46,304 nucleotides of DNA. Origin: Acaryochloris sp. IP29b_bin.176 (GTDB lineage: Bacteria; Cyanobacteriota; Cyanobacteriia; Thermosynechococcales; Thermosynechococcaceae). Both the position numbers and the translations under genes were made by a program. The DNA lies in contig JANQPU010000139.1 in NCBI GenBank assembly GCA_028285315.1, forward strand, positions 1 to 46,304. The letters run 5' to 3'. Positions 1 to 23,705 of the stretch are shown here, piece after piece. Numbering within the stretch: position 1 is the stretch's first letter; the number at the start of each line of letters is the position of its first letter. The notes below the pieces were generated by a model, which did not search any database, was not told the DNA's origin, and saw only the letters and a list, made by a program, of their open reading frames with translations.

Positions 1-765
1 TTTGATGTTGCCCAACGAGATCGTGACCTGTTTGCTTGGTTATCCTCCCAACGTGATGCTCGGTTGAATGGATACGTCAATTCAAAATGTTATGCCGACC
101 TGCGAAAAAGCTGTCATTTTTATCAGCGACTCTTTTGCCAGAAGCGTGGACACCTTTATACCATTCCAACCCCTGTCATTTTTGCCGAAATTAGACAGTA
201 CGGGACACCGACAGGTTTATACCACGATATCTTACGAGAATTAGGTAATCCCTTTGCTGATATTGGGCGGTTGGTCCATCTACGAACGAGAACTTGGGGA
301 ACGCTGAAATCTTACCAAGTCAGGCTACTCGTTATCGGCAAGGCGGATTTTCTGAGTTATAAAGCTTTGAACGAGCTGATTGAATTAACCAGAAATCTGA
401 AAATCGCGATTGTTCTAGTTGGTACCCACTATCTCAACGAACTTTTGAAACGTGGGACCAAACGGTATGCCGATATTGCCAGCACATTTTTAGACTGGCA
501 TGTTTTTCCTCCTTTCAAGAAAGCGGAGACTGTGGGGATCATCCAACAGTGGGAAGCTCAGGTTTTAAAGGGATGGTCACAACCCTTGAATCTTTTTAGC
601 GATGAGCAGGTCGTCAAAATTCTATATGAGAGATCAGGCGGTCATGGTGAAGTGCTCTACGATATTCTCCGCAAGGTTGCCATTCTCAAACTGGATTATC
701 CTTCCTTAACGTTTAACGCAAATGAACTATGCAAGATTTTGGCTAGTCGAGACACTCCGTCTTAA
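1..765 (+). CDS. tnsC: TnsC-like AAA+ transposition regulator, 5'-truncated by the window, Walker motifs missing
   Basis: The frame is open from base 1, so the start lies outside the window; 254 residues are visible. They align almost without gaps to my recollection of the Scytonema V-K TnsC: the region before Walker A, the sensor-like AIVLVGTHYL, and the C-terminal lid ending near GGHGEVLYDILRKVAI. TnsC normally binds ATP, forms a filament on target DNA and links Cas12k/TniQ to the TnsB transposase. Here the Walker A position (GESRTGKT in the reference) reads SKCYADLR and Walker B (IDEAD) reads IGKAD, so the phosphate-binding Lys and the catalytic Asp-Glu are absent. The segment corresponding to the arginine-finger region is also different. 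No stop or frameshift interrupts the frame. It lies 8 bp upstream of tniQ. Alternatives are a pseudo-ATPase variant, a second non-catalytic TnsC, or decay by missense change. Confidence 0.85.
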   Translation, partial: FDVAQRDRDLFAWLSSQRDARLNGYVNSKCYADLRKSCHFYQRLFCQKRGHLYTIPTPVIFAEIRQYGTPTGLYHDILRELGNPFADIGRLVHLRTRTWGTLKSYQVRLLVIGKADFLSYKALNELIELTRNLKIAIVLVGTHYLNELLKRGTKRYADIASTFLDWHVFPPFKKAETVGIIQQWEAQVLKGWSQPLNLFSDEQVVKILYERSGGHGEVLYDILRKVAILKLDYPSLTFNANELCKILASRDTPS

Positions 766-1403: not shown

Positions 1404-1925
1404 TCAGGATCCAGGCTTGCCAGAATGGTTCATCTCTTTCTTCAGAGCAGAAATCAATGGATAGTGCTTTTGTTTTTCCTGCTCCAGATTGGTGAGTTTA
1501 TTTTCTAGAATTCTCACTTTCTCTGCCAGGTAGCAGAGGATATCTAGAACCTCTTGCATCGGGTCTGCAGCCTGATCATGTTGCCAAACGTCAGGAGGAC
1601 GCTCAGACTCACTAGTTTGGATGGCATGGGGCGAGAGTCCATCAAGTTCCATGACTTTTGAATTCATCACATATAGATATTGTTTACCTGTGCCAGTCGC
1701 ACTCTGAATCTTCAATCGCTCTACACAATTCTGAGCATGTAATTGCTTGAGGTATGTATAAGCCGTTGACAATCCAATCCCCATTTCTAAGTGCAGTTCG
1801 TGTGCAGTTAAACGACCACCGTAACGCTGTATCACAACAATAGCCTCTTGTAGCGAGGGTTTGAGAACTAGTTTTGGTGTGAGTTCCTTTGGTGCATCTC
1901 CAGCGGTCACAATCTCATTCACCAT
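1404..1925 (-). CDS. Winged-helix-type transcriptional regulator within the CAST, with C-terminal coiled coil
   Basis: The reverse-strand frame extends upstream to 2066, but the extra 47 residues look non-coding and the ATG at 1925 has a purine-rich TAGGG upstream, so a 173-aa product is proposed. Residues about 20-90 resemble a winged helix: a helix LQEAIVVIQRYGG, a turn AHELHLEMGIGLSTAYTYLKQLHAQ, and a wing around KIQSATGTGKQYLYV. The C-terminus (LDILCYLAEKVRILENKLTNLEQ) looks like a dimerising coiled coil. The gene is convergent with tniQ and divergent from the ribbon-helix-helix gene. Several V-K CASTs carry a dedicated repressor of cas12k, such as the MerR-type CvkR; this protein is in the right place for that job but is not obviously MerR-type. 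Its role is inferred from context only. Confidence 0.7.
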   Translation of the reverse strand: MVNEIVTAGDAPKELTPKLVLKPSLQEAIVVIQRYGGRLTAHELHLEMGIGLSTAYTYLKQLHAQNCVERLKIQSATGTGKQYLYVMNSKVMELDGLSPHAIQTSESERPPDVWQHDQAADPMQEVLDILCYLAEKVRILENKLTNLEQEKQKHYPLISALKKEMNHSGKPGS

Positions 1926-2085
1926 TGATAGCCCTACCGACAAAACACGGTTTTTGTAGAGCAGGCACCAGTTATATGAAATTTTTCCAAGAAAATCACG
2001 GGCAAAACTCCAGCAGTTTAATCTGAGAAAAGCACAAGCCAGCCAGAGAGCCAACATAGCAAGCAACTCTCTAGCTGACCGTTCT

Positions 2086-2177: not shown

Positions 2178-2471
2178 ATGCCTGAAAAAGGGCGAAAGAA
2201 ACTACGGGGACAACCCGAGCTATACGATGAGGTCAAAGGTCAAGTGAACCTGTCGCTGACAGCAACTGGAGTAAAAGGACTTGATGATCTTGCCAAACAG
2301 ATGGGGATATCTCGGTCTGAGTTTATTGAGCAAGTGGGTCGTGGTCACCTTCCAGTGCTATCTCCTGAAGAGTTGACAGCCTTGCGTAGGATTCTCACCC
2401 AGCTCCAAGCTGACAACTCTCATGATGAACTGGCAGCATGCTTGGCAACATTAAGTCGGTTGATGGAATAA
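2178..2471 (+). CDS. Small ribbon-helix-helix (Arc/CopG-like) DNA-binding protein
   Basis: The product is 97 residues. After a basic N-terminus (KGRKKLRGQP) comes a ribbon-helix-helix pattern: a strand QVNLSLTATG, a helix KGLDDLAKQMG, a turn, and a helix SRSEFIEQVGRG. A helical C-terminal extension follows. The ATG at 2178 is preceded by AAGAGG, a good ribosome binding site. It ends 73 bp before the chosen cas12k start, so it is likely transcribed with cas12k. Arc-like regulators have been reported in V-K CASTs, so control of cas12k or tracrRNA expression is the natural guess. That role is inferred, not shown. Confidence 0.8.
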   Translation: MPEKGRKKLRGQPELYDEVKGQVNLSLTATGVKGLDDLAKQMGISRSEFIEQVGRGHLPVLSPEELTALRRILTQLQADNSHDELAACLATLSRLME

Positions 2472-2544
2472 AGCTGATTATTTCTGTCTTTACTGTTACA
2501 GGGTTTCATCGTATTTTCTGTTGATTTCGATGGTGAGTAGAGCC

Positions 2545-4569
2545 ATGGTAATGAAAACCGTTGAGTGTGTACTCGATGCCCCATCAGAAACACTGGAGAA
2601 ATTTTGGCACTGGACGGAGAAATATACACTTCTGGTGAATGCGGTCCTAGAAAAAGTTGCAGATGATTCTCGCTTTCCCCAGTGGTTAGCTAAGGGAAAT
2701 ATTCCACAAATCATTATCGACAAAGAGTTTCTTGGCTTTCTCAAGTCAGAAAAGGAGTATGCTGACTTGCCTAAGCTTTTCTATGTGTCAGCAAAGCTTG
2801 TTGTTTCGCGGATCTATAAATCTTGGTTCGCGATTCACCAAAAAAGTTTCTACCGACTGCAACAGAAGAAACGATGGCTCTCGATTGTTCGGCGAGTCTT
2901 AGACAATGAACCCAATGACCCTTCTCATGAGGAGATCTGTGGCCAGGCTGCTCAGTGGTTGTCCTATTGCGAAATTCACGATCTCAAGAAGACTAAGAAG
3001 AAATCGGCCTGGCTTCAACTGCTAATGCAATCAGCAGAAAAACAAACTGAGAGAGTCGATTTGCTAGCCATTGCCTATCTTCTGCTCAACAATCTAAAAA
3101 TTCCAGAGGAGCCGTTTGTCAAGAATTCGCTGAAAAAGCGTTTTACCAAAAAAGAAATAGAGATTGAGCGGTTAGATGCCAAGATAAATCAACAATTACC
3201 CAAGGGGCGAGACCCACTGGGGAGCAGGTATCTGGAGCACCTTACTCAAGCTCTTGCCTTGCCCAAGTTATCGAATGATCCTCAGAGACTTGTCGTAGAA
3301 TTGCAATCCTGGAAACAGCAAATTCAATTACCCAACTTCAATGCATTGCATTATCCCTTGGTTATTGAGAGTTCTGGTAAATTCTATTGGTCAACTATTG
3401 ATGTTGTCTCAACTCGCGATTTTAATACTAATGATGCTCCAACCGATATACAGAGTCAGAGCGTTTTAGGAGTATCGTTCTCAGGATTCGCAGATTGCGT
3501 GTTTCAAATCAAATGCAGCCGGAGACAACTCTACATTTTTCGCCGTTTTCAAGAAGAAGGAAACTACTTCCACAGACAAATAAATGAGGGTAAAAAGACT
3601 CCTAATGTCTGTCCCCCACCTTGGGGACTATTTCCGCTCAGAGCAGGACAGGTATTGTGGCGTCCAAGCCACAAGTATAAGAGCAAAAAACCGTGGGTAA
3701 TTCATCATCTGCATTTACAGTGCAATATTGACGAGCAATTGCTCTCTCAAGAGGGAACTGCTAAGGTCTGCGCGGAGAAAATCGAAGCCACAAAAAGAAA
3801 GCTGCAACCGTTCTTAGATAAATCGCCAGAGACCCTCAAAAAAAATCAGAGAACTTGCCAGAAAAGAAATCAGTCATCACTTCACCGTCTCCAGTATTCT
3901 TCTCTCAACAGACCTCATACTTCTCCCTATATTGGAAACCCTGAGTTAACCTTGGGAGTGAGTTTAAGTCGTGAGCTTCCGCTGCAAGCTTCCATTGTTA
4001 ACAAACAGACTCGTCATTTGCTTGCAACCATCACAGCCCCACAGCTACTTCAATGGGAAGGCTTTCGGGAGAAGCTCAACCCATGTAGAGAAAGCCAATT
4101 CTCTGATTTGATAGAGCGCGTACATCGCCAAAGAATTCAATGGCGAAAAATTCGAGAAAAAGAGTATTCCAAGGGCAAATTACGCCAATCGAAGAAACTT
4201 GAGAATCTAGGAACATATTGCGACAGGTTAATCGCTAAACGCTTGATTCAGTGGGCTCAAACATATCATGTAGGTGAAATAATTCTCCCATCCCCCAAAG
4301 GAATCAAAGACAATATTGAAGCAAGTCTTCAGACCCTGGCTAGGCTGAAGTTCCCGGCCAATAAACAACTTCAGAAAAAGTATACACAATCTATTCGTCT
4401 GAGGTGTCCACACTGGAGTTACAGCCGTTTGATCAAGTGCATTTCAGACTGTGCTGAGAGACGAGAATTGAAGGTGAACATTCTGCAAATCTATGACGTG
4501 GCTGCCTCCCTCGAACAATCCGTAGATATTGCTTGTGCCCATCATCAGTTCCTAGCTCCAGGTCCCTGA
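2545..4569 (+). CDS. cas12k: Cas12k (C2c5), naturally inactive type V-K RNA-guided effector
   Basis: The product is 674 residues from the ATG at 2545; in-frame starts at 2521 and 2530 would add a few residues. The match to my memory of Scytonema Cas12k runs along the whole length: IYKSWFAIHQK near residue 93, the QLPKGRDPLGSRYLEHL stretch, WVIHHLHLQCNIDEQL, TLGVSLSRELPLQASIVN, then LIAKRLIQWAQTYHVGEIILPSPKG and HWSYSRLIKCI. The RuvC-I aspartate position reads as the VSL of GVSLSRE, as in other Cas12k proteins, so the protein should bind its target without cutting. It acts with the tracrRNA and guides encoded just downstream. It is followed by an 8-bp hairpin and then the tracrRNA region. It is somewhat longer than Scytonema Cas12k (about 640). 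Confidence 0.95.
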   Translation: MVMKTVECVLDAPSETLEKFWHWTEKYTLLVNAVLEKVADDSRFPQWLAKGNIPQIIIDKEFLGFLKSEKEYADLPKLFYVSAKLVVSRIYKSWFAIHQKSFYRLQQKKRWLSIVRRVLDNEPNDPSHEEICGQAAQWLSYCEIHDLKKTKKKSAWLQLLMQSAEKQTERVDLLAIAYLLLNNLKIPEEPFVKNSLKKRFTKKEIEIERLDAKINQQLPKGRDPLGSRYLEHLTQALALPKLSNDPQRLVVELQSWKQQIQLPNFNALHYPLVIESSGKFYWSTIDVVSTRDFNTNDAPTDIQSQSVLGVSFSGFADCVFQIKCSRRQLYIFRRFQEEGNYFHRQINEGKKTPNVCPPPWGLFPLRAGQVLWRPSHKYKSKKPWVIHHLHLQCNIDEQLLSQEGTAKVCAEKIEATKRKLQPFLDKSPETLKKNQRTCQKRNQSSLHRLQYSSLNRPHTSPYIGNPELTLGVSLSRELPLQASIVNKQTRHLLATITAPQLLQWEGFREKLNPCRESQFSDLIERVHRQRIQWRKIREKEYSKGKLRQSKKLENLGTYCDRLIAKRLIQWAQTYHVGEIILPSPKGIKDNIEASLQTLARLKFPANKQLQKKYTQSIRLRCPHWSYSRLIKCISDCAERRELKVNILQIYDVAASLEQSVDIACAHHQFLAPGP

Positions 4570-5075: not shown

Positions 5076-5184
5076 GTTGCAAAGTCTGTTAAAGGGTGTT
5101 TGGGGCTGAAAGAATATATTCACTACGCCCATGCTCTGGGCAGTCGCGTTGCAAAGTCTGTTAGAGGGTGTTTTGGGTTGATAA
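5076..5184 (+). CRISPR. Minimal V-K CRISPR array: two 37-nt repeats, one 35-nt spacer
   Basis: Repeat 1 is 5076-5112, starting GTTGCAAAGTCTGTTAAAGG and ending GGGGCTGAAAG. Repeat 2 is 5148-5184 and starts GTTGCAAAGTCTGTTAGAGG, with a diverged 3' end (GGGTTGATAA), as is usual for a terminal repeat. The 37-nt length and the GAAAG end match known V-K repeats. The single spacer (5113-5147) contains a small inverted repeat, GCCCA-TGCTC-TGGGC. I see no match to it elsewhere in the window. Downstream of repeat 2 I find no further standard repeat; the homing guide begins about 110 bp later. Confidence 0.9.
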
Positions 5185-5269: not shown

Positions 5270-5313
5270 AGAACTGGGAGTCTAGAGCGCTGAAAGAAAC
5301 CTTAGCCTTCCAA
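5270..5313 (+). ncRNA. Delocalised homing crRNA targeting the adjacent tRNA-Gly
   Basis: The sequence GCTGAAAG (5289-5296) is identical to the last 8 nt of CRISPR repeat 1. It is followed by AAACCTTAGCCTTCCAA (5297-5313), which is identical to 17 nt of the tRNA-Gly gene at 5901-5970 read on the reverse strand. In the tRNA the match is preceded by GGTA, which fits the NGTN PAM of V-K systems. Beyond 17 nt the two sequences differ. Upstream, GGGAGTCTAGAGC loosely resembles the GGGTGTTTGGGGC part of the repeat. This fits the separate, short-match homing guides described for V-K CASTs. The 5' end of the RNA is unknown. Confidence 0.88.
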
Positions 5314-5640: not shown

Positions 5641-5888
5641 GGACACTAATTCTGCAAAACGAGCTAAATCGTGATGTTTTATTTACACAAAGTAAGTGTT
5701 GCAGCAGTTTTGTATCTAATCAGTGCCAACTTTTTACAAGCTTGATAAGCTAAAAAGCCCCTTGGAGTAGGGGATAAAGCCTTCTTCTTTGTATAGGGGC
5801 ATAGCTGGATTATCTCAGAATCATTTATCTTGCCCTTCTGTTTTGGACATTATTCGTGCAAAACGGACAAATAGCTTTGCAATGTACA
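5641..5888 (+). repeat. CAST array-side transposon end with TnsB-type repeats and TGTACA terminus
   Basis: Two copies of a 28-bp element are clear: GGACACTAATTCTGCAAAAC at the start of 5641-5668 and GGACATTATTCGTGCAAAAC at the start of 5845-5872. They agree at about 20 of 28 positions, including TGCAAAACG. The second copy lies 16 bp from the terminal TGTACA (5883-5888), the same terminal hexamer I recall for the Scytonema element. A weaker related stretch is near 5370-5400. These are probable TnsB binding sites. The interval also includes a small hairpin, CCCCT/AGGGG, near 5759-5774. Confidence 0.75.
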
Positions 5889-5900
5889 ACAAGCGGCAAA

Positions 5901-5970
5901 GCGGGTGGGGGGAATCGAACCCCCATCATTAGCTTGGAAGGCTAAGGTTTTACCACTAAACTACACCCGC
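5901..5970 (-). tRNA. tRNA-Gly (UCC anticodon)
   Basis: On the reverse strand a full cloverleaf can be drawn: acceptor GCGGGTG/CACCCGC, D arm with GTGGT, anticodon stem TTAGC/GCTAA with loop CTTCCAA (anticodon TCC), and T arm GGGGG-TTCGATT-CCCCC. CCA is not encoded. It serves as the attachment target of the CAST: the homing guide matches its D-loop to anticodon region and the element ends 12 bp beyond its 3' end, leaving the tRNA intact. Confidence 0.96.
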
Positions 5971-23279: not shown

Positions 23280-23705
23280 CGAGGCGTTTACTGCCATATG
23301 ACAACTAGCATAAGTTGGATAATTTGAGAACAACCGAATGTAATATGTATCACTTTTTAGGTTTGGCAGGATATTCTGTCACCCTGTAACCCAAGAACTA
23401 GTTTTGTAAGAGTATGTTAATTCCCTACAATCCCTTCTCTGTAGGGCTTATGGAGTCTTTATATATTTCTATAGCGCAATTTAAATAGAAATTTAATAGC
23501 TTTTTGTGGTCATGGAGAATAATTCAGTTTATACTCTTATACAGATGGGCTATCGATCCCCCCGTATAGCTCAGTTAAGTCCTCGAAACGGCAACTTGTC
23601 TCGAAAGAGCAAGACGCAAATTAGCGAGTCTAACCCTTATGAAGGCATGATGGTCGTTAATACCGAAGGGACTTTATTTTTATGGTGGGTATATTTCTCT
23701 ACACT
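23280..23705. other. Intergenic region with a possible short open frame
   Basis: The stretch after the thrC remnant is AT-rich, with runs such as TTTAAATAGAAATTTAATAG. A short open frame from ATG 23512 to 23709 (65 codons, containing SPRNGNLSRKSKTQ and a C-terminal YEGMMVVNTEG) overlaps the end of the sugar transferase gene by 4 bp. It lacks a recognised family and I do not call it a gene. Confidence 0.35.

Follow-up and report, generated by a model that had tools for sequence, protein, structure and literature searches.

Architecture of the element

The window, by which we mean the whole 46,304-nt stretch of DNA analysed here, is the entire contig C412 of a 438-contig, 87% complete genome of Acaryochloris sp. 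IP29b_bin.176. It opens within a tnsC gene (1–765, plus strand), which is followed on the same strand by tniQ (774–1286; 170 amino acids; Pfam TniQ, 3.7e-8) and cas12k (2521–4569; up to 682 amino acids), the product of which matches NCBIfam V_Cas12k at 2e-134 and ShCas12k in the PDB at 5.6e-58. Between tniQ and cas12k lie genes for a putative winged-helix regulator (1404–2066, minus strand; weak Pfam HTH matches of 0.0074 and 0.0097, below the cut-off) and for a small ribbon-helix-helix protein (2178–2471, plus strand; Pfam RHH_1 at 6.8e-5, above the cut-off). The latter gene shares the strand of cas12k and the former lies on the opposite strand; Arc-type CAST regulators have been described in reverse orientation relative to cas12k (PMC9938897). 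Downstream of cas12k, a pattern scan places two CRISPR-repeat-like units, starting at 5076 and 5148, at 5076–5184 (plus strand), and a 17-nt homing spacer that follows CTGAAAG (5297–5313, plus strand) exactly matches a tRNA gene.

The attachment site is a tRNA-Gly gene (5900–5970, minus strand), identified by both Rfam and ARAGORN, which contains the protospacer (5934–5950) and a GGTA PAM (5951–5954) on its own strand (together 5934–5954). The tRNA-proximal transposon end (5866–5888, minus strand) reads inwards as TGTACATTGCAAAGCTATTTGTC. Its terminal TGTACA finishes at 5888, at a distance of 62 bp from the PAM, and the 5-bp target-site duplication ACAAG (5889–5893) adjoins it. The second ACAAG is found on contig C117 (L003:165-169), directly before the opposite, matching end, which runs from L003:170 as TGTACATTGCAGAGC; the coordinates add up to an element of about 15.1 kb. 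A Cas12k effector, the gene order tnsB–tnsC–tniQ with a short TniQ, a tRNA-matching homing spacer with a GTN PAM, and defined ends with a 5-bp duplication and an insertion distance of about 60 bp together identify the element as a V-K CAST. No TnsA was found among the open reading frames scanned with Pfam, which took in part of the small ones, and the Rfam matches in the window are a tRNA and a riboswitch only. On its sequence, the element looks functional.

Some observations concern neighbouring and related elements. An apparent end of an older CAST-like element abuts the present one (L003:142-170), with ACAAG between them, which looks like a tandem insertion beside an earlier element at one tRNA target. 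The riboswitch, of the c-di-GMP-I class, scores above the Rfam gathering score at 23580–23667. In a sister species, the element shares the guide, has a spacing of 53 bp and lies on a contig with other genes upstream of tnsB, which suggests that the two elements were inserted separately. The sister cas12k (L020:2525-4582) is 64% identical to that of the window (2521–4569), with a dS of 1.3, and the two tnsC genes are 96% identical; the cas12k module thus seems to have been exchanged.

The tnsC gene continues across a contig break

The first 765 bases of the window form a stop-free frame of 254 amino acids that continues past the left edge. The full TnsC has 299 residues, of which the window encodes residues 46–299; the first 45 codons are on C117 (L003:9251-9385), and the frame runs uninterrupted into the window. 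The first 87 bases of the window are identical to the last 87 of C117. Besides the first tnsC codons, C117 has tnsB (608 amino acids) and genes for type I restriction-modification, and the two contigs are further paired by the 5-bp duplication present on both. The preliminary description had suggested that a second, canonical tnsC might be encoded further left, but on C117 we find tnsB and the beginning of the tnsC that continues into the window.

The break lies just ahead of the altered Walker A motif, and the assembly of the sister species breaks at the same base. This coincidence led us to consider an intron, a programmed rearrangement or a chimera, all of which are ruled out by an identical run of 110 bases common to both species (window −11 to 98). 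As this run exceeds the k of 99 of the sister contig, a value that we infer for the window's own assembly as well, the break is best read as an assembly artefact.

TnsC has lost key ATP-site residues and is predicted to keep its fold

The window protein is closest, in sequence and in fold, to TnsC of the Scytonema hofmannii ShCAST (PDB 7m99, 7plh), which it resembles in AAA+ fold, size and place in the operon (PDB sequence match to 7m99, E 1.8e-11), although identity in the fold alignment is only 25%. Walker A, the two acidic residues of Walker B, Q185 and R189 of ShTnsC are all missing from it. Where ShTnsC has GESRTGKT, alignments place SKCYADLR (82–105, plus strand), which departs from the Walker A pattern GxxxxGK[TS]; GK replaces the Walker B acidic pair DE (337–342, plus strand), so that IDEAD becomes IGKAD. 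Q185 and R189, described as recognizing the nucleotide-bound state (PMC9876797), are replaced by Asp and Thr, the latter encoded at 484–486 (plus strand), and the protein is a few residues longer than ShTnsC ahead of the R189 position. The strand AVVLVGT of ShTnsC is retained as AIVLVGT. The motif changes, the preserved scaffold and the open frame are thus as first noticed from the DNA. A compensated frameshift masking an intact Walker motif is ruled out, as the alignment is gap-free across the motif and homologues carry the new motifs too.

Structure prediction, proposed at the outset as a check, gave an AlphaFold model of the 254-residue part with a mean pLDDT of 93.6 and the AAA+ fold of TnsC. 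Its top Foldseek matches in the PDB are ShTnsC with ATPgS and with AMPPNP (7m99, E 4.7e-14, TM 0.81). In this model, the phosphate-binding loop (P-loop) is turned into a helix: strand 24–28 is followed by a two-residue turn and helix 31–45, whereas a canonical TnsC from L067, modelled as a control from the same 39 loci, has strand 58–61, a six-residue loop and helix 68–77. The window protein is classed here as a TnsC homologue and not as a TnsC ATPase.

Walker-less TnsCs form one old clade

We surveyed 388 genomes of the class, 20 of which gave a match at E 1e-15 or better, four of these being canonical; at least 16 genomes carry a Walker-less TnsC. Survey loci, two plasmid loci and canonical relatives were combined in an alignment of 115 TnsCs, leaving out eight open reading frames (fragments, duplicates of included loci and the two pieces of the truncated L063) and including L060 with its single stop read through. 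Seventy-two of the sequences are canonical, 22 have Walker A and lack the Walker B glutamate, and 21, defined by loss of K66 and E145 (ShTnsC numbering), have neither. The Walker lysine is kept in 94 of the 115, and in the remaining 21 its place is taken by Leu (76%), Ile or Val. The same 21 have all lost R189 (Thr, Ser, Ala or Asn instead), 19 have lost Q185 and two keep it, and Walker B D144 is gone from 17, four keeping the aspartate; their acidic pair reads GK, GN, GY, NN, NY or DD.

With the motif columns removed beforehand, the 21 group as one clade with a support of 99 in a quick tree of all 115 sequences and of 100/100 in a careful tree of 109 rows, from which L146, L152, L154, L162, L166 and the second TnsC of L167 (five Walker-B variants and one canonical sequence) were left out. 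Four of the 22 Walker-B-less rows were placed elsewhere in the quick tree, and all four are among these six. The clade spans six family codes and two plasmid records and, by these trees, is old and deep. With the Walker lysine kept in 94 sequences and only Leu, Ile or Val in its place in the other 21, the loss goes beyond chance.

A second V-K-type group (L128, L130 and L132-L147) has likewise lost the catalytic glutamate, Q185 and R189 but, unlike the Walker-less proteins, keeps Walker A as GKS and mostly has DN for DE. It forms a separate clade, possibly sister to the Walker-less one, the long branches of the two meeting in the careful tree. Most TnsBs of this GKS/DN clade end in a different tail, ERHKLVIPKNQTLKRIW-like. 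A tandem tnsC pair, one canonical and one Walker-B variant, occurs at L167:1495-3185.

These comparisons bear on whether ATP might still be bound in a non-standard pocket, for instance through Lys68, as a structural ligand that is not hydrolysed. Lys68, two positions C-terminal to where the Walker lysine was, is found in 76% of the clade, and the related V-K clade that keeps its P-loop and has lost the glutamate makes binding without hydrolysis plausible among relatives. Lys68 is not universal in the clade, however, R189 and mostly also Q185 and D144 are gone, and the P-loop is modelled as a helix where the canonical control has a loop. We therefore consider such a pocket unlikely.

tnsC is under purifying selection

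Between the genome of the window and the sister species, tnsC differs by 26 synonymous and 15 non-synonymous changes, a dN/dS of 0.16 (Fisher p 1.5e-8); for the same species pair, tnsB gives 0.09 and tniQ 0.17. In five other pairs within the clade, tnsC dN/dS is 0.10–0.19, at dS values of 0.69 to 2.0 that are partly saturated, and the pair of the window with L048 gave no dN/dS because of saturated dS. The ratio, which the preliminary description had named as a check, is thus not near 1, and these values indicate purifying selection on tnsC rather than drift.

Decay, in which a dead tnsC drifts once transposition has been lost, would fit some visible damage: an in-frame stop interrupts the sister cas12k and, among the 21 clade members, the tnsC of L060, and the truncated L063 was left out of the 21. 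cas12k is split in Gloeothece and G040. Against decay stand the dN/dS values of the window pair and the five further pairs, a selection test that largely refutes it, as well as the grouping of the Walker-less genes in one old clade across six family codes and two plasmid records and the target duplication that the element retains. We regard decay as highly improbable. The preference for a retained pseudo-ATPase, voiced before any comparison, draws support from the clade of 21, from the dN/dS of 0.16 and from an element with guide, ends and target duplication.

Operon neighbours and second TnsCs

Homologues of the window gene that share its neighbours do not all have intact Walker motifs: 21 are Walker-less, and in 18 of their loci tnsC is followed by a tniQ that matches over at least 150 of the 170 residues. 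No such tniQ was found at L025 and L054, and the copy at L058 is cut. Cas12k is encoded on the same contig, with no other known tnsC between, in at least 12 of the 21, some copies being partial, split or interrupted by stops.

We considered whether the Walker-less protein might assist or inhibit, through mixed filaments, a canonical TnsC whose gene lies elsewhere. A TnsC of another kind accompanies the Walker-less one in 10 of the 16 genomes, and in G215 the two sets lie side by side. In these operons, however, the Walker-less gene occupies the place of tnsC itself, and in the other six genomes, picked for the absence of another strong match and the window's genome among them, two further searches at E 0.001, which divergent TnsCs could escape, found no second full-length TnsC. 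One of the six, G268, consists of two contigs and is 100% complete; three are 82–87% complete. Only short TnsC fragments were seen in the window's genome (G000) and G117. As six of the 16 genomes showed no second full-length TnsC, a partner does not appear to be obligatory, and we give this explanation little credence. A negative regulator, another role that had been proposed, is unlikely because no other tnsC was found on the element.

A canonical set adjoins a Walker-less set at L058:3186-7382. The window's genome also contains a TnsC fragment with stops at C343:7911-8207 and a second Cas12k fragment at C280:75-1493.

Insertion spacing across elements

We examined ten Walker-less elements, the window's included, considering guide–tRNA matches of at least 14 nt. 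In six, a spacer matches the neighbouring tRNA gene over 14–18 nt (Gly in three, Ala in two and Pro in one), each time with a GGTA PAM, and the spacings are 62, 53, 61 or 54, 62, 60 or 70, and 59 bp; the paired values reflect two candidate ends each, and the 59-bp element ends in TGGACA. No guide–tRNA match of 14 nt or more was found in the other four of the ten; in one of these four, L195, the contig end cuts cas12k.

A wider comparison covered 30 Cas12k loci, 16 of them with a guide–tRNA match. Spacings were 62, 62, 61 or 54, and 53 bp for four Walker-less elements; 61, 63 and, with a doubtful TGAACA end, 47 bp for three whose contig also encodes a canonical TnsC; 54, 60 and 57 bp for three Walker-B-less elements; and 47, 59 and 62 bp for three of six loci of unfixed TnsC type, the other three having no end in the range examined. 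For the 63 and for one of the two 47s, the matching stretch extended into the repeat by one base, so these two distances may be overestimated by one. For comparison, ShCAST inserts 61–66 bp from the PAM, and V-K CASTs at 46–82 nt with one exception of 147 (PMC9876797, PMC9938897). In these small numbers, elements without the ATP site show no visible difference in spacing. Spacing is, however, a weak discriminator, because it varies outside the clade too (47 bp at two loci, one of them doubtful).

A probable nucleotide-free TnsC

Taken together, we read the window as containing most of the core of a V-K CAST in which the one TnsC that turned up is a pseudo-ATPase, maintained by selection and probably functional, a reading to which we assign a probability of roughly 0.7. 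Most likely, this protein is a TnsC that sets the spacing and recruits TnsB without nucleotide. Such a TnsC would need no nucleotide to assemble on target DNA, with Cas12k and TniQ as its seed; once assembled, it would act as the same fixed-length spacer and would recruit TnsB through the C-terminal hook of TnsB. Control over nucleation, and not the trimming of stray filaments by TnsB-triggered ATP hydrolysis, would in that case determine target choice.

The broader proposition is that an old V-K lineage transposes without the ATP step of TnsC, with a Cas12k–TniQ-seeded, nucleotide-free TnsC giving the spacing of about 60 bp and recruiting TnsB, so that hydrolysis would be dispensable for both the ruler and target choice; here we see the odds as even. 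In ShCAST, mutation of the Walker B glutamate severely compromises transposition (section 2.5 of PMC11406308) and AMP-PNP renders it untargeted (PMC9876797), so an ATP-free version would need compensation. The insertions, moreover, are past events, in which another TnsC could have served in trans: 10 of the 16 genomes have one, and the present genome has the fragment on C343. The damaged copies described above and the four elements in which no guide–tRNA match was seen also count against our main reading.

Walker-less V-K TnsCs, treated as new in the preliminary description, had already been mentioned: section 2.5 of a 2024 review (Annu Rev Biochem, PMC11406308) states that canonical Walker motifs are absent from multiple V-K TnsCs, some of which may not bind ATP. 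That section gives the point one sentence, without a clade, selection test, structure or spacing, and our searches of the open-licence literature found no analysis of the Walker-less clade beyond it; a 2023 survey discarded TnsC sequences gapped at Walker positions (PMC10293859). What is added here to a known oddity is a well-documented case, with clade, selection and spacing. In ShCAST, TnsB-triggered ATP hydrolysis by TnsC is thought to clear stray filaments and thereby to restrict insertion to the site chosen by the guide (PMC9876797). A natural lineage that has no ATP site and ordinary spacing makes this idea directly testable: either target choice works without hydrolysis, or Walker-less elements rely on another means in its place. 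Tools for genome insertion could also become simpler with an ATP-independent TnsC.

The TnsB C-terminal hook, which is required for ShCAST transposition (PMC9371665), keeps its acidic-aromatic form in the Walker-less clade, where tails such as ...DWNQLLEDNW resemble canonical ones (...DYEQLREDYGW). Co-loss of TnsB Y439 with the Walker motifs was looked for and not found: the 20 TnsBs of the clade, L060 having yielded none, comprise 15 with Tyr, two with Phe, two with Arg and one unaligned. At L055, L057, L058 and L059, where the Walker-less TnsC is of the DRLG type, TnsB carries an insert of about 16 residues beside the position of Y439; the domain concerned is the one that, in ShCAST, touches the ATP pocket of TnsC. 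We also noticed that Walker-less TnsC may go together with long Cas12k proteins.
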